The notes beneath the pieces are model-generated. The model had not been told where the DNA came from. It made no database searches and saw only the letters and a program-made list of their open reading frames with translations. This document shows positions 25,190 to 56,713 of a stretch of DNA of 64,000 nucleotides, one piece after another. Source of the DNA: Erwinia aphidicola (GTDB lineage Bacteria; Pseudomonadota; Gammaproteobacteria; Enterobacterales; Enterobacteriaceae); the NCBI RefSeq assembly GCF_024169515.1, contig NZ_JAMKCQ010000003.1, forward strand, positions 25,903-89,902. Direction: 5' to 3'. Position 1 is the first letter of the stretch, and each line of letters begins with the position of its first letter. The position numbers and the translations under genes are program-made.

Positions 25190-25993
25190 TCAGATAAAGC
25201 GGCAACCGATGGCGCCGAGAGCCGCGTAATCAACATGAAAGGTATCCCCTCTGCGGGCGGCTACCGGACGGGTAAAGGAGCCACTGAGGATCACCTGCCC
25301 CACCTCCAGCTGCACATTGTGGTGAGAAAGTTTGTTCGCCAGCCATGCGACGCCGTTAGCGGGATGGTTAAGCACTGCGGCTGCCACACCGGACTCTTCA
25401 ATCACGCCATTGCGGTACATCAGGGCGCTCACCCAGCGCAGATCGAGCGCATCTATTTTTACCGGGCGGCCGCCTATTACCACCCCCGCACTGGCGGCGT
25501 TATCGGAGATGGTGTCGAACACTTTGCGTGGCCGCTGCGTGTCCGGGTCGATGTTGTGGCAGCGGGCATCGATAATTTCCAGGGCCGGGATGACATAATC
25601 AGTAGCATTCAGCACATCAAACAGCGTGCAGTGTGGCCCGTGCAGCGGTTGCCCCAGCACAAAGGCCAGCTCCACCTCAACCCGCGGTACAATAAAACGG
25701 TCGAAGGGAATATCACTGCCCTCGGCGAAAAACATATCGTCAAGCAGTGCGCCATAATCCGGCTCATCGATTTGCGAGCTGGCCTGCATCGCCTTCGAAG
25801 TCAGACCAATTTTATGGCCTTTTAATCTCCGTCCGGCGGCGATTTTATGGCCGATCCAGCGCTGCTGAATGGCATAGGCATCATCCAGCGTGATTTCCGG
25901 GTAGGCCAGCGAGGGCTGGCGGATCTGCTGGCGATCTTTTTCTGCCCTGTCCAGTTCAGCCGCCAGCCGGTTAACGGCGCTTTGGTCTAACAT
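25190..25993 (-). CDS. hpaH: 2-oxo-hept-4-ene-1,7-dioate hydratase HpaH
   Basis: 267-residue fumarylacetoacetase-fold hydratase acting just before the aldolase. Family blocks seen: [37 protein letters not shown] segment, [29 protein letters not shown] (metal-binding acidic residues), NPANG-like [14 protein letters not shown] and [16 protein letters not shown]. Length as in E. coli (267). It sits 9 bp before hpaI within the operon. Confidence 0.94.
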
Positions 25994-46392: not shown

Positions 46393-46516
46393 GATTACAG
46401 GATTGCAGGATTGCAGGATTGCAGGATTGCAGGATTGCAGGATTGCAGGATTGCAGGATTGCAGGATTGCAGGATTGCAGGATTGCAGGATTGCAGGATT
46501 GCAGGATTGCAGGATT
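46393..46516. repeat. 8-bp tandem array 1 (GATTGCAG), 16 GATT boxes
   Basis: One GATTACAG, then 14 perfect copies of GATTGCAG (46401-46512), then GATTATTT. Each GATT is exactly 8 bp from the next. The array creates a repetitive open frame that is not a gene. It is probably part of the partition centromere (see the array directly upstream of parF). Confidence 0.85.
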
Positions 46517-46614: not shown

Positions 46615-46674
46615 GATTATGGGATTATGGGATTATGGGATTATGGGATTATGGGATTATGGGATTATGGGATT
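46615..46674. repeat. 8-bp tandem array 2 (GATTATGG), 8 GATT boxes
   Basis: Seven perfect copies of GATTATGG from 46615 and a last GATTATTT. It has the same GATT tetramer and 8-bp period as array 1 but a different 4-bp spacer (ATGG instead of GCAG), and the same TATTTT exit. Confidence 0.85.
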
Positions 46675-47070: not shown

Positions 47071-47260
47071 TGGACACCTCTTCTCAAAATGACTCGCATT
47101 TAATCGGGTTTCATCAGGCCACAAATCCGTTATAGCCCGCCAACGTTACCGCTAACATAGGCAGTAAATCCCCGCATCTGATACAGACTATATAAATTAG
47201 CGCTAAGAAACCTGAAGTACAAAGGCTGAGCATGTCGCCTTTGAAATTACGATTACCAAT

Positions 47261-47296
47261 AATTCTGTGATTCTGTGATTCTGTGATTCTGTGATT
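47261..47296. repeat. 8-bp tandem array 3 (GATTCTGT)
   Basis: AATTCTGT followed by three GATTCTGT copies (47269, 47277, 47285) and GATTGTTG at 47293. Same GATT period as arrays 1 and 2, with spacer CTGT. Its phase differs by 3 bp from array 4, so it is a separate block. Confidence 0.8.
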
Positions 47297-47327
47297 GTTG
47301 CAGGGTATCTTATTGTTCCTGAAGAGG

Positions 47328-47403
47328 GATTACTATATCCTGTAATCATATAATCCCGTGATTTAAAAATCCCATAATCCTGGGATTACGTAATCCTGTG
47401 ATT
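47328..47403. other. parH: Centromere-like array 4 upstream of parF (GATT/AATC every 8 bp)
   Basis: Ten tetramers in strict 8-bp phase: GATT at 47328, TATC at 47336, AATC at 47344 and 47352, GATT at 47360, AATC at 47368 and 47376, GATT at 47384, AATC at 47392 and GATT at 47400. AATC is the complement of GATT, so boxes occur in both orientations. Spacers are 4 bp and variable. The parFGH system of TP228 has ACTC tetramers with 4-bp spacers bound by ParG upstream of parF; this array ends 29 bp before parF and should be the equivalent centromere and operator. The symbol is by analogy. Confidence 0.75.
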
Positions 47404-47432
47404 CACCAGAGATAAACTTTAGGGGGCGTCTG

Positions 47433-48059
47433 ATGACAACCAAAATTATCTCCTTCCTGAACGGGAAGGGCGGGGTAGGGAAAACGACGACCTCCATCAA
47501 TATCGCAACATGCCTGGCTCGCAAGGGCTTCAAGGTTGTGATGGTGGATACGGATCCTCAGGGTAGCATCAGCAATTGGTACGACGAAACCAAGTGCAAA
47601 TTTGATTTGGCTGAAGCGGCATCCGAAAAAGAAGTTTATACCGTGCGTAAACAGCTGAAGGACTATGACTACGTGGTCATTGATGGCGCTGCGGCCATAA
47701 CGGCGATATCTTCAGCAGCCGTTATGGTCAGCGATTTGGTGCTTATTCCGGTGACGCCTTCACCTCTCGATTTTGCTGCTTGTGGCGCGATTCTGGCGGT
47801 GGTCGAAGCGCGCGAAAACTTGCAGCCGGTGATTGCGCGATTCCTGATTACCAAAAAAGTTGCCTCTACGCGCATGCTTGAGGTCCTAAAAGAGTCAATC
47901 GAGGATACCGGTGTTCCGGCGCTTAAAACCGCGACGACTCAGCGACAGGTGTACATACGCACAATGCTGGATGGTGGAACCGTATTTGACACGACAGACG
48001 GCAGTGCAAAAGGGGAGATCGATGTGATGACAAACGAAATTCTGGAGCTGCTTGCATGA
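47433..48059 (+). CDS. parF: ParF-like partition ATPase (small ParA)
   Basis: 208-residue ParA-type ATPase of the short class without an N-terminal DNA-binding domain, the size of TP228 ParF (206). Deviant Walker A NGKGGVGKTTTSIN at residues 10-23, then DTDPQGSISNW and VIDGAAAITAI. It would move plasmid copies using ATP. AGGGGG precedes the ATG. It overlaps parG by 4 bp (ATGA). Confidence 0.92.
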   Translation: MTTKIISFLNGKGGVGKTTTSINIATCLARKGFKVVMVDTDPQGSISNWYDETKCKFDLAEAASEKEVYTVRKQLKDYDYVVIDGAAAITAISSAAVMVSDLVLIPVTPSPLDFAACGAILAVVEARENLQPVIARFLITKKVASTRMLEVLKESIEDTGVPALKTATTQRQVYIRTMLDGGTVFDTTDGSAKGEIDVMTNEILELLA

Positions 48060-48268
48060 AAATGAAACTAGGACAACATCGGCAGTTAGCACCGGCGCTG
48101 GATGCAGTGAGTAAGCCACCTGCCGGGACTGTAAAAAAATTGCAGACTAATATCGACGAAGATCTGCACCGCAGGTTTAAGACGGCCTGTTTTATGCAGG
48201 GTCGTGAGATGAAGGATGTGCTGACAGAACTGATTGAGCACTGGCTTCCAGAGAATGAATCCCGCTAA
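48056..48268 (+). CDS. parG: ParG-like ribbon-helix-helix centromere-binding protein
   Basis: 70-residue protein with a flexible basic N-terminus (residues 1-28) and a ribbon-helix-helix domain: KLQTNIDEDLHRRFKTACF then MKDVLTELIEHWL. TP228 ParG (76 residues) shares NVNFDEEKHTRFKAACARKG and VVNQLVDNWLKENE at the same places. It should bind the GATT tetramers, repress parFG and link DNA to ParF. Confidence 0.88.
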   Translation: MKMKLGQHRQLAPALDAVSKPPAGTVKKLQTNIDEDLHRRFKTACFMQGREMKDVLTELIEHWLPENESR

Positions 48269-48454
48269 CAAGGATCCTCTTAGACTGGTCCCGCGGCATC
48301 TCTTTTTTTGAGGGATGTCCTTGCTTGAAGGATAGGTTTTTAGAGGATCTACTCAAAAAAAAGATCCTATAACGTTTGTTCTTTTCTTTATAGTTTAGAT
48401 CTTTATAGTTTAAGGGGGTGTTTTTCTGAGATAAATCATATGATTACAGATGTT

Positions 48455-49390
48455 TATGTGGATGTTTTTCCTGTCTGAAGTGGAGTGATTTTCTGTTATA
48501 TGTGGAGTTTTTTCCTGCTATACGTAGAGTTTTTTCCTGTTGATAACTTTCTGATCTGGCGAAATATTTTATGTGGAGTTATTTTCTGTGGATAACTTCT
48601 TCTCACCGTTGCCTCCTGATATTCATGCACGTTCCTGCCTTTCCTGATGAAAATCGAAGTTGTCACATCTTAAGAAATAGTCACGTTACATTGTCACATA
48701 AGTCAGTCTGAGTTAATCATTATCATAAAATTAAATCGTTATAACAATAAGTTACTACATTTCTGTATTTCTTATGTGGAGTGATTTTAGGTTGTACCTG
48801 TTTGACTAAGACATACGTGGAATTTTTTTATGTATGAGTCGCGTAACAGGAAAGGCTAAAGGTGGAAAAATTTTCTGTACTAAATTTTGATTGTGACCAT
48901 GTCACTTTTCTGTTCCATATGTGGATGGATTTTATGTTTGGCATGCTGCCCAGTTCTCGAGTCGTACTCAAAGGTGGATAAATTTTCTGTTTGCCTGCGC
49001 AAAAGCGCCTGGCGGCACCCCTGTTGAATAGTTTTTCGCTAAAATGTGGAAAGATTTTCTAAGGAAATTTATTTTATCTTTTTGATAAACAATGAAATAG
49101 TGGTGTTTGTGAAATTACATATAGCCCCCTTCCCATGGACAGAGGGAGCCTCAGAGATAAGCCTGGCCAAAGGTGGAGTAATTTTCTGTAGTGTGTCCGA
49201 AGGTATGTGGAATGATTTTCTGATGGCCTGTTTCAGGCTGCCGGGCATATGTGGAAGAATTTCCGGTTAAGTTGCGCTGAGTTCTGGTATGAATATGTGG
49301 AGTGTTTTCCTGTTGCCATCTCGCACTTTCAGGATCGAACTACGACTAAATTGGATCCTGTGCTGCCTGAATGTGGAGGAATTTCATGCT
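48455..49390. other. Replication origin with direct iterons
   Basis: About sixteen degenerate direct repeats near the pattern TGTGGA-N4-TTTTCTGT, for example at 48455, 48478, 48501, 48521, 48571, 48773, 48813, 48861, 48918, 48972, 49042, 49171, 49204, 49249, 49293 and 49371. They have irregular spacing. A perfect DnaA box is at 48587-48595 and AT-rich stretches at 48660-48780 could melt. Located upstream of repA, this is an iteron origin of the RepA/Rep_3 class. The stretch 48269-48454 upstream is AT-rich and has no gene. Confidence 0.82.
48587..48595 (-). promoter_or_regulatory. DnaA box
   Basis: TGTGGATAA, the exact complement of the DnaA consensus TTATCCACA, lies among the iterons, at the 3' edge of the iteron beginning at 48571. 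Confidence 0.8.
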
Positions 49391-49470
49391 AACACAAACT
49401 GCGTTACTTCTTAAATTATTGATTTTAAATAACTAATAATGATGTTATTTTACTTTACCTGAATATTTTT

Positions 49471-49502
49471 TGTGTGGAATACTCTGCTGTACATTCCACA
49501 CA
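49471..49502. promoter_or_regulatory. Inverted iteron operator in front of repA
   Basis: TGTGTGGAAT (49471-49480) and ATTCCACACA (49493-49502) are perfect 10-bp inverted arms 12 bp apart, ending 13 bp before the repA ATG. Rep_3 initiators repress their own genes as dimers bound to inverted half-iterons, so this is the expected autorepression site. Confidence 0.75.
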
Positions 49503-49515
49503 GGGATCCTGCTAA

Positions 49516-50493
49516 ATGGAGCTAAACAAACTGACGGTCGTACAAGGTAACGATCTCCTTGAAGGGGCCTACAGTGTCACGCTGGATGAGATGCGGTTGC
49601 TGAACCTGGCACTTGCTCAAATCGACAGCAGGAAACCCCAGCCTGACGCGCTGTATCGCTTATTTCCCCATGATTATCAGCGTATTTATGGGTTAAATCC
49701 AACCAGTAGCCATCGGCAGCTGCGTGAAGCTGCCGAAAGCTTGATGAAAAAACCCGTTACCATCTATCAGCCCGATCGCAAAACCGGCAAAATGCGTACC
49801 GTCCAGCTTTCCTGGTTTTCCCGTCTTGAATACGTCAGCAGTGATGAGCAGAGTGCGGTGGTACTGCGCTTTGGTCAGGATGTTGCCCCCTATCTTTATG
49901 AACTAAAAGAGTCGTTTACCAAGCTTAATTTTATCAATATTGCCAAGCTTGATACGGCTTTCTCTGTGCGGCTTTACGGTTGGTTAATCAAAGCCAAAAA
50001 CCTTTACGGACGTAAGAGCAGTAAGGCGATTGAAGTGACGCTGGCTCTGGACTGGATGCGTGAAAAAGCCGGGCTGCAGGGCAAATATGAAGATTATCGT
50101 GACTTCCGCCAGAAACTGCTGGAGCCTACGCTGGCGCGCATTAATGCTAATACGGATATCTCAGTTATTTGGGAACCTATTAAAAAAGGGCGCACCGTAG
50201 TGTCGATTAAGTTCTCATACGTGGACGAATCTTCTCATGAAGCCAGTAAGCCGCTGCGCCCTAAATTTCCCCGCAGGCCGCGGGCGACGGTGGGTTCAGA
50301 CCTGGAAGGAGAGTGGGCACGCCGCTGTATACATATCATGGAGCAGTATCGGGAACGCCTGGCTACTTACGATCGGAACGAGAAAGTCCCGTTGACGGAC
50401 GTCAGAAAACTGGCAGCCTGGTATAAGACAATCGGTGATAAAAGCAGCCATAAGCGTGTAATGACGGAAGTCAGCGAGCGTGCAAAAAAATAG
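49516..50493 (+). CDS. repA: RepA replication initiator (Rep_3 family)
   Basis: 325-residue initiator with two winged-helix domains. Visible family sequence: TLDEMRLLNLALAQID, FPHDYQRIYGL, REAAESLMKKPV, DVAPYLYELKESFTKLNFINIAKLDTAFSVRLYGWLIKAK in sequence order, and DWMREKAGLQGKYEDYRDFRQKLLEPTLARIN. The basic region PLRPKFPRRPRA follows the second domain. Monomers should bind the direct iterons upstream; dimers should bind inverted repeats. It is the replication gene of the plasmid. Iterons lie on both sides, the usual copy-control arrangement. Confidence 0.93.
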   Translation: MELNKLTVVQGNDLLEGAYSVTLDEMRLLNLALAQIDSRKPQPDALYRLFPHDYQRIYGLNPTSSHRQLREAAESLMKKPVTIYQPDRKTGKMRTVQLSWFSRLEYVSSDEQSAVVLRFGQDVAPYLYELKESFTKLNFINIAKLDTAFSVRLYGWLIKAKNLYGRKSSKAIEVTLALDWMREKAGLQGKYEDYRDFRQKLLEPTLARINANTDISVIWEPIKKGRTVVSIKFSYVDESSHEASKPLRPKFPRRPRATVGSDLEGEWARRCIHIMEQYRERLATYDRNEKVPLTDVRKLAAWYKTIGDKSSHKRVMTEVSERAKK

Positions 50494-54474: not shown

Positions 54475-54879
54475 TTACTTGATCAGGAAATCTTCAAGTT
54501 TCTTGCCAGCATCCAGTGCCTGCTTAATAACGGCCGGGGTACGGCCCTGGCCAGTCCATGATTTTGCTTCGCCGTTCTCATCAGTATATTGATACTTAGC
54601 AGGACGTGGAGCACGCTTGGCACGTGTTTTGCCAGCGGTATTATCAGCTGCAGTCAGTTCGCTTAAATCGATACCATCTTCCAGCAACATCTGGCGATAT
54701 TTAGCCAGTTTTTCTTCTTTTTCTTTAATCTCAGAAGCGATGGCCGCATCTGCTTCACGACGTTCGTTCACTACCGCTTCGAGTTTTTCCAGCATCTCTT
54801 CCAGTTCAGATAAAGACACTTCACGAGCCTGGGCACGAAGGGTGCGAATGTTATTTAATACTTTCAGCGTTTCGCTCAT
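54475..54879 (-). CDS. hns: H-NS-like nucleoid protein
   Basis: 134-residue H-NS paralogue. Oligomerisation domain [42 protein letters not shown] in order, a linker, and the DNA-binding domain [38 protein letters not shown] with the QGR AT-hook. The start at 54879 gives the exact chromosomal H-NS length; 54891 is an alternative. Plasmid H-NS proteins silence AT-rich plasmid genes and limit the load on the host's own H-NS. Confidence 0.93.
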
Positions 54880-55435
54880 AACGGAATCCATAACCTGTGA
54901 GTTGGTTTAAATTTGTTCACTATTGTAACGGAGACCAGTGTACAGACAATTCGAGGACGAAAAAACATTAAATTAAAAAAATGTTTCTTTAAATGTTACC
55001 TGGATACCGTTTCTCTTAAGCGGAAAACAAGGGGGGGCATAGGTATATTTACAACTTATGGGATAAATCTTAACAATCTTTAAGGTTAAAAGAGCCATCT
55101 GAAAAGTTCTTAGCATATTAATCACTTCTTTTATGACTATGCCATTTTAAGATTAGCCCCGTGAAGTCAGGCATTTTGAAGCTAACTCCTTTAAATCCTT
55201 ACGCCATGCATTGGAGGGATAAGCGGATCAGGTGACGCTGTCACCTGCATGGATTCAACCCTGCGGATACTGTTCGAACTTTTATTCTCAGACAGGTCGC
55301 GTTGATTAGTGAAACTTTAAAGAATGGCAATGAGAAACGTAGCCTGATTGCTGTACAGTCGTTTTTTGAGGTGTAGTGCCGCCCGTTTCACCGGTTATTA
55401 TCACTGAATGTCGGCCTGAAAAATTGGAGGTGGTG
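54880..55435. other. AT-rich intergenic region upstream of hns
   Basis: About 550 bp without a convincing gene. The first 250 bp are AT-rich and contain poly-A and poly-T tracts that suit hns autoregulation. No terminator, repeat or RNA gene is recognised. Confidence 0.4.
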
Positions 55436-55937: not shown

Positions 55938-56037
55938 GATTCTATAATCCTGTGATTACATAATCCTGAGATTACGAGATTACGAGATTACGAGATTACG
56001 AGATTACGAGATTACGAGATTACGAGATGGCAGGATG
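55938..56037. repeat. Centromere-like array 5 (GATT/AATC every 8 bp) upstream of the qnr-like gene
   Basis: Boxes in strict 8-bp phase: GATT 55938, AATC 55946, GATT 55954, AATC 55962, then GATT at 55970, 55978, 55986, 55994, 56002, 56010 and 56018 (unit GATTACGA), and degenerate GATG at 56026 and 56034. Same box, period and mixed orientation as the array before parF, 8.5 kb away. It ends 25 bp before the qnr-like ATG. Confidence 0.82.
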
Positions 56038-56062: not shown

Positions 56063-56713
56063 ATGTCAACGACCAGGCAATACCGCAATGAGAAGTTCAG
56101 CTGCTCCCAGTTCACGGGCAGTATCGTTGAGCACTGCCAGTTTATTAATTGCGACTTTTCCTCGACAGACTTGACTGATACCCGCTTTCTCCACTGCCAA
56201 TTCTACGATCGTGAAAGCGAGATCGGCTGTAACTTCAGCCGGGCAATCCTGAAAGATGCCAGCTTCAAGCTGTGCGACTTAACCATGAATAATTTCGGCT
56301 ATGCCGAAGCGCTGGGCATTGAGATCGCCGAATGCCGCGTGCAGGGTGCGGATTTCCGTGGCGCCAGCTTTATGAATATGATCACGGCAAAAACCTGGTT
56401 TTGCAGCGCCTATATCACCAAAAGCAATCTGAGCTACGCCAACTTTTCTAAGGTGGTGTTGGAAAAGTGCGAACTGTGGGAAAACCGCTGGGTCGGCACT
56501 AACGTGCTGGGCGCCTCTTTTAGCGGGTCCGACCTCTCCGGCGGCGAATTCAGCTCGTTTGACTGGCGATCGGCGAATTTCACCCACTGTGATTTAACCC
56601 AATCTGTGATTAGCGAGCTGGATATCCGTACAACGGATCTTGAAGGCGTCAAGCTGAACAGCACGCAGCTTGCTATTCTGGCGGAACGCCTGGGAATTAT
56701 GCTGGTCGACTAA
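56063..56713 (+). CDS. qnr: Qnr-family pentapeptide repeat protein
   Basis: 216-residue right-handed beta-helix of pentapeptide repeats closely matching QnrB (214 residues). Shared blocks include FYDRES then GCNFSRAILKDASFK, QGADFRGASFMNMIT, TWFCSAYITKSNLSYANFSK, VLEKCELWENRW and FSGSDLSGGEFSSFDWR. Qnr proteins bind and protect DNA gyrase and topoisomerase IV from quinolones. The ATG at 56063 is chosen by family start and GGAA spacing; 56027 is in frame inside the repeat array. No LexA box of the qnrB type is seen upstream. Activity against drugs cannot be judged from sequence. Confidence 0.88.
   Translation: MSTTRQYRNEKFSCSQFTGSIVEHCQFINCDFSSTDLTDTRFLHCQFYDRESEIGCNFSRAILKDASFKLCDLTMNNFGYAEALGIEIAECRVQGADFRGASFMNMITAKTWFCSAYITKSNLSYANFSKVVLEKCELWENRWVGTNVLGASFSGSDLSGGEFSSFDWRSANFTHCDLTQSVISELDIRTTDLEGVKLNSTQLAILAERLGIMLVD

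Follow-up and report, generated by a model that had tools for sequence, protein, structure and literature searches.

GATT/AATC boxes in 8-bp phase before parFG on an Erwinia aphidicola plasmid, a probable variant of the TP228-type partition site

The closest described counterpart of the locus studied here is parFGH of plasmid TP228 (entries 4dzz for ParF and 1p94 for ParG), with which it shares the gene order, a ParF of about 206–208 aa, and a ribbon-helix-helix (RHH) ParG. Also shared are tetramer boxes in 8-bp phase that immediately precede parF and occur in either orientation, as seen in two TP228-type loci (L020 and L021), of which L020 encodes a ParG identical to that of TP228 and supplied the TP228 box word. 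In RHH proteins, DNA specificity reportedly resides in the ribbons, which can be transferred from one scaffold to another, as in the artificial factors of Zampini and Hayes in 2012. The omega/parS unit of plasmid pSM19035 is a heptad of 7 bp. A review describes several dispersed short-unit arrays there, direct and inverted, which an RHH dimer reads alike and which serve as operators and centromere, with omega genes that are separately transcribed in an arrangement unrelated to parFG (PMC5016525). In parFG of the Klebsiella plasmid pMET1, repeats lie upstream of parF, and the authors call them unrelated to the TP228 repeats (PMC2262945). For the Erwinia plasmid pEA29, a review mentions 8-bp repeats that were tentatively tied to a partial parA (PMC4551865). 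In the ParMRC plasmids of Clostridium, the binding specificity of ParR is reported to go with the phylogenetic family and to bear on incompatibility (PMC9426499).

The window, that is, the whole 64-kb stretch of DNA analyzed, covers positions 25903–89902 of an 89,902-bp plasmid contig in a 4.9-Mb, three-contig genome of Erwinia aphidicola. New here are a putative ParFG partition system with another box word, a spacer rule, and a tandem satellite expansion. Among the papers listed by a search of the open literature, with four TP228 papers lying outside it, none dealt with a GATT centromere or a ParG ribbon-word code.

The parFG genes and the arrays on the plasmid

The parF and parG genes overlap by 4 nt (ATGA). 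ParF has the deviant Walker motif NGKGGVGKTT, lacks an N-terminal HTH, and is identical to that of E. aphidicola JCM 21238 (L036). The source genome held one ParG match, which scored 54.3 bits against PF09274 (cut-off 21.4) and E 8e-12 against 1p94. Together with the ParF match to 4dzz (E 9e-77), these scores bear out the sequence-only reading, which had placed a ParF-size ATPase and a ParG-like RHH protein downstream of the boxes. In a structure model of ParG, helices were predicted at residues 35–47 and 52–67, and residues 1–20 had block pLDDT values of 50 and 53. The Foldseek neighbours of the model included Arc, CopG, AmrZ, and MatP, none of them at E 0.001, and 1p94 was not among them. 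ParG R9 aligns with R19 of TP228 ParG, which we take to be the arginine finger; several relatives have Lys there.

Table 1. Features of the plasmid locus and of one related repeat locus. Positions are those of the window unless a locus is named.
Feature	Position	Strand	Details
Tandem array, spacer GCAG (one ACAG)	46393..46516	+	16 GATT boxes; 18 boxes in L147
Tandem array, spacer ATGG	46615..46674	+	8 GATT boxes; 21 boxes in plasmid p3_B10_7 (L147)
Tandem array, spacer CTGT	47261..47296	+	5 boxes (AATT, then four GATT)
parF-proximal mixed-orientation array, probably a partition site bound by ParG and the operator of parFG	47328..47403	.	ten slots, nine GATT/AATC and one TATC
parF, 208 aa, ParA-type ATPase without N-terminal HTH	47433..48059	+	NF041546 183.2 bits, cut-off 180; TP228 ParF 4dzz E 9e-77
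parG, 70 aa, RHH centromere-binding protein by homology	48056..48268	+	Pfam PF09274; 1p94
ParG ribbon codons KKLQTNI	48134..48154	+	K28, Q30, N32 align with TP228 R36, N38, N40
Distal array	55938..56021	.	11 boxes; first mixed GATT/AATC, followed by tandem GATT (spacer ACGA)
ATTACAGA arrays upstream of interrupted GATT-type parG	L176:1351-1519	reverse	

The proximal array comprises ten successive 8-bp slots, which read, at 47328, 47336 and so on to 47400, GATT, TATC, AATC, AATC, GATT, AATC, AATC, GATT, AATC, and GATT. The flanking slots hold no box (TGAA at 47320, AGAG at 47408), and parF starts 29 bp past the end of the array. In 3000 dinucleotide shuffles of 47297–47432, the maximum ten-slot count was 4, compared to 9 observed, and it was also 4 in 400 shuffles where all 136 word classes and all periods between 5 and 13 were admitted. 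Runs of four RATY boxes at 8-bp steps gave 33 overlapping matches in the window and none in 100 shuffles. These shuffles rule out pure chance as the origin of the array, and the ten strictly phased boxes proposed from the letters alone were confirmed slot by slot. The array is kept in two further E. aphidicola loci, L036 and L170, which may be the same strain; they differ from the window at a single spacer base.

Runs of at least four exact GATT/AATC boxes occur five times on the plasmid contig at period 8, and at none of the periods 5–7 or 9–15. Beyond the proximal array, the 1.1 kb preceding parF contain three GATT arrays, and a fourth lies 8.5 kb downstream of the gene. Each tandem array has a spacer of its own, the only common features being word and phase. 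A similarity search with the proximal array, which arrays with other spacers could escape, found four places, all on this contig. The copy number of the CTGT array differs within E. aphidicola: the window has 4 GATT boxes and L036/L170 have 14, the total being 15 boxes in L036 (AATT and 14 GATT) and 14 GATT in L170.

Several other features of the plasmid and its relatives were recorded. Between parG and the Rep3 initiator gene (49516–50493), ten GTGGA...TTTTC motifs occur at 48458–49309 (48001–49600 searched); they are probably replication iterons. An H-NS-family gene lies at 54475–54891 (−), with 191 bits, below the cut-off of 211. A Qnr pentapeptide family gene at 56063–56713 (+) scored 312 bits against NF033086 (cut-off 240) but stayed short of the cut-offs for QnrB and QnrE. 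The gene probably starts at 56063, 41 bp past the distal GATT array, and might therefore be influenced by ParG. The E. aphidicola plasmid p3_B10_7 (L147:9244–9645) keeps the two upstream GATT arrays with GCAG and ATGG spacers, with a transposase gene just beyond, and the 18.7 kb fetched of this plasmid contain no annotated parFG.

Box words and ParG ribbons among relatives

To compare box words across relatives, we collected 28 annotated plasmid-record stretches (25 first-round parFG loci and three more), the best 80 of 171 genome-contig loci, 31 viral-contig loci, and smaller sets. ParG was assigned by a profile made from 17 annotated ParG sequences, which was run on 139 loci. A ParG match below E 1e-5 was found in 121 of these, and 92 non-redundant loci remained after those with less than 200 bp upstream or an identical ParF core were left out. 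Words were searched de novo in up to 500 bp (minimum 200) ahead of parF, over 136 four-letter word classes and periods 5–13. Each distinct box-spacer-box was counted once, so that tandem copies added nothing, and ties for the top word were judged among the three best words stored per locus. Residues 36, 38, and 40 follow the numbering of TP228 ParG. With the source genome included, PF09274 matches occurred in 12 of 37 genomes of the genus, 7 of 394 of the order, 2 of 369 of the class, and 10 of 398 of the phylum. Weak matches from outside the family, at L158–L165, weigh neither for nor against the reading given below.

The box word followed the ParG ribbon. In the de novo search, GATT at period 8 ranked first or tied for first at 24 of 29 Gln38-Asn40 loci, the exceptions being L010, L060, L118, L119, and L124. 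GAGT (the complement of ACTC) at period 8 was top or tied in 20 of 28 Arg36-Asn38-Asn40 loci, leaving eight of the 28 Asn38-Asn40 loci where it was not. Not one of the 52 Asn38 loci, the 28 Asn38-Asn40 loci included, had GATT as top word, and not one of the 29 Gln38-Asn40 loci had GAGT. With the shuffle level set at 0.05 (60 shuffles), the tally was GATT in 22 of 26 for the Gln38-Asn40 class and GAGT in 10 of 13 for the Asn38-Asn40 class; the remaining words in both classes were AT-rich or shifted. Box-to-box distances, examined from 4 to 32, peaked at 8, 16, 24, and 32.

Relatives with the same type of ParG did not lack phased GATT boxes: 28 of the 29 Gln-Asn ribbon loci had at least two GATT/AATC boxes in phase within 500 bp before parF. 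The sequence-only reading had held that this plasmid uses the TP228 grammar with a different word, GATT. The relatives support both grammar and word, but GATT is a one-base change of GAGT and belongs to a whole clade, not to this plasmid alone. Its premise that the TP228 type has ACTC boxes in the same place also stood, as TP228-type relatives carry ACTC/GAGT in 8-bp phase.

A third word was found in four Proteus/Providencia loci (L027, L028, L061, and L064; KRINVDL ribbon), which have ACAC/GTGT at 8 bp. Two of the four reached the 0.05 shuffle level with this word, and the pooled loci agreed. Their ParG keeps Asn38 and is yet paired with ACAC/GTGT. In alphaproteobacterial Asn38 loci (KRLNA ribbon), GAGT at period 8 was the sole top word in 4 of 18, three of them at the 0.05 shuffle level, and 12 of 18 had at least two phased GAGT boxes. 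A rule by which an acidic residue 40 would give ACAC was rejected: the alphaproteobacterial Asn38-Glu40 loci have GAGT where a word was seen, and the Proteus-type Asn38-Asp40 loci have ACAC.

Some loci combine words. In L009, a five-copy GAGT tandem array (L009:4848-4883) lies just past parG, although this ParG is Gln-type; after it come an apparent incomplete duplicate of the end of parG and a further GATT array. One strain of Chimaeribacter coloradensis carries a GATT-type parFG (L046) and an Asn38 ParG with ACTC/GAGT boxes seen by eye (L071), a locus whose top de novo word was AT-rich. Mixta mediterraneensis has two GAGT-type systems (L070 and L074), and co-resident words were for this reason rejected as proof of compatibility.

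We then tallied the third box base wherever three or more phased GA[C/G/T]N boxes formed a chain, with tandem copies taken once and third base A excluded. It was T in 331 of 346 boxes of the Gln38-Asn40 class, G in 126 of 134 boxes of the Asn38-Asn40 class, and G in 36 of 46 alphaproteobacterial boxes; no GA[C/G/T]N chains were found in the Proteus-type loci. Five loci made up a second Gln38 group, in which residue 40 is Ile, Val, or Glu; L084, L120, L123, and L156 contributed 44 boxes (T 19, C 13, G 12), and L083 had no chain. Scans of viral contigs for this group returned only contigs already in the set and one distant locus (L154). The words of the second Gln38 group were GACA, GATT, and GATG with some GAGN, which rules out the simple rule that Gln38 means GATT. 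Per-locus scoring covered 85 loci with Gln or Asn at residue 38 (without L034 and L035, and with L156 and L157 added), 20 of which gave no score. The third base was a pyrimidine in all 32 scored Gln38 loci and G in 30 of 33 scored Asn38 loci; the three contrary Asn38 loci (L088, L093, and L099) had a pyrimidine.

Residues 36, 37, 39, and 41 often co-vary with residue 38. On a ParF tree of 93 loci (L156 absent), residue 38 needs three changes. The second Gln38 group sits on the Asn38 side of this tree, with L083, L084, and L120 together and L123 apart on a long branch, and the residue-38 shift therefore seems to have happened more than once. Independent contrasts numbered one on well-supported branches and three on all branches, so that phylogenetic significance is out of reach and the evolutionary statistics are weak. 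The Fisher value computed alongside takes no account of kinship and was set aside.

The spacers of the proximal array had been described as varying, but across the clade they are not free. The central step of the spacer was pyrimidine-purine in 158 of 212 GATT-class spacers (distinct within each locus; 25% expected), compared to 28 and 27 of 212 for the other two steps, and it formed the majority in 24 of 28 GATT-class loci. In the GAGT class, the central step was pyrimidine-purine in 17 of 90 spacers. The AT content of spacers was 61% in the GATT class and 93% in the GAGT class. Pyrimidine-purine steps are flexible, and we suggest that they may for this reason stand in for the AT-rich spacers of TP228.

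Much of the array DNA is a tandem 8-bp satellite with variable copy number. The 303 kb surrounding the 29 Gln38-Asn40 loci, of which 64 kb is the window, contained 57 perfect tandem arrays with periods between 4 and 30, and 54 of the 57 had period 8. These 54 arrays contained 33 with GATT, 15 with GATG, 2 with GATA, 1 with AATT, and 3 with none of these. GATT thus occurred in 33 of 54 units, compared to 6% of random units, the arrays of related plasmids not being independent. In 396 kb around the 52 Asn38 loci, period 8 occurred in 13 of 18 tandem arrays. GATG arrays were present in L002–L005, L041–L044, and L046–L049, among others, and may represent weaker or decayed boxes.

A probable ParG-bound partition site and its alternatives

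Taken as a whole, the arrays very probably are ParG-binding partition sites of a ParFG (type Ib) system whose word differs from that of TP228 most likely through ribbon residue 38, a reading drawn from sequence comparison. Each 8-bp unit, made of a 4-bp box and a 4-bp spacer, would take one ParG dimer, with neighbouring dimers side by side. Because the ParG dimer is two-fold symmetric, it could read a box in either orientation, and ParF would move the plasmid coated with ParG. Standing directly before parF, the proximal mixed array would probably be the parFG operator too. Residues 36, 38, and 40 presumably face the DNA, judging by the alternating pattern of the ribbon and by Arc and its kin. 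Gln in place of Asn at residue 38 would then be the most likely determinant of the third box base and hence of the clade word GATT, as opposed to GAGT/ACTC in TP228.

The strongest alternative, which we consider improbable, is that the proximal array acts only as a transcriptional operator of parFG, the centromere being the upstream tandem arrays alone or another site. The array stands immediately before parF, where, according to a review (PMC5016525), the TP228 operator region lies between centromere and genes, and it is the least variable array within E. aphidicola. However, word and phase recur 0.1–1.0 kb upstream and 8.5 kb downstream, beyond what an operator needs, and the repeats of the TP228 operator region also act in partition, as the same review states (PMC5016525). 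Moreover, a strict sigma-70 scan of 47150–48450 gave no promoter, which leaves the operator reading itself unproven.

Binding of the arrays by another protein, for example the Rep3-type initiator or the H-NS-like protein, both encoded on the same plasmid, is very unlikely, since the likely iterons of the initiator have a different motif and the box word tracks the ParG ribbon across relatives. Neutral slippage microsatellites without a protein partner are the least credible reading: perfect tandem units and strain-variable copy numbers, such as those of the CTGT array, would fit them, but they are countered by a word and 8-bp phase that are held across different spacers and orientations, non-tandem mixed arrays included, by the excess of GATT and of period 8 among the tandem arrays, and by a word that differs with the ParG ribbon.

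Beyond partition by ParG itself, we put forward tentatively, and as a possibility more likely wrong than right, that residue 38 forms a natural code in which it picks the third base (Asn for GAGT, Gln for GATT), so that centromere groups are mutually blind. The arrays would evolve like satellite DNA, with word and phase held by ParG and with spacers and copy number turning over fast as in eukaryotic centromeres, possibly via competition between plasmids for the segregation machinery. If this were true, relatives with a one-base word difference and few ribbon differences would bring the word choice of an RHH protein within reach of a short binding experiment, and the origin of new partition specificities would be approachable in the same way. 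In the satellite-like arrays, bacteria would have their own parallel to the quickly evolving repeats of centromeres, and such arrays would probably account for the 8-bp repeats described from an Erwinia plasmid.

Comparison with known partition systems

Compared to TP228, the word is GATT/AATC instead of ACTC/GAGT, and the site is therefore a variant and not parH itself. The ribbon is KKLQTN here and KRVNVN in TP228, and the spacers, AT-rich in the TP228 type, have a pyrimidine-purine centre in the GATT class. A 51-nt gap separates parF and parG in TP228, whereas the two genes overlap here, and the extra tandem satellite-like arrays are a further difference.

The several dispersed short-unit arrays in both orientations resemble pSM19035 omega/parS, a likeness by description. 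Two loci, L026 and L032, have pMET1-like gene lengths and order around parFG, which suggests that they are relatives of pMET1. Their top word was ACTC/GAGT at period 8 (score 3; shuffle levels 0.05 and 0.08), which is the TP228 word and not GATT.

Repeats that may be those reported for pEA29 were found in an Erwinia congener. On its contig G1087:C2, the unit ATTACAGA, with AATT boxes and spacer ACAG, occurs in two blocks 0.8–1.0 kb upstream of an interrupted GATT-type parG, and an open TP228-type parFG (L166) with ACTC/GAGT boxes lies about 9.5 kb away. Among the hits of a protein search was a ParG fragment of 56 aa (P0020), named Erwinia amylovora, whose ribbon reads KKIQIN. Presumably, ATTACAGA is the pEA29 repeat, G1087 is E. 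amylovora, and the contig is its plasmid. The contig is a probable plasmid with a decayed GATT-type locus. The ATTACAGA repeats thus look like the relic of a GATT-type system, and this decayed locus may explain the 8-bp repeats of pEA29.

The ribbon grafting ascribed to Zampini and Hayes used engineered proteins, whereas the variation seen here is natural and tied to centromere arrays; the reported role of the ribbons fits the ribbon-word association seen here. For the idea that box words bear on plasmid compatibility, the ParMRC plasmids of Clostridium offer a precedent, but in a different partition system.
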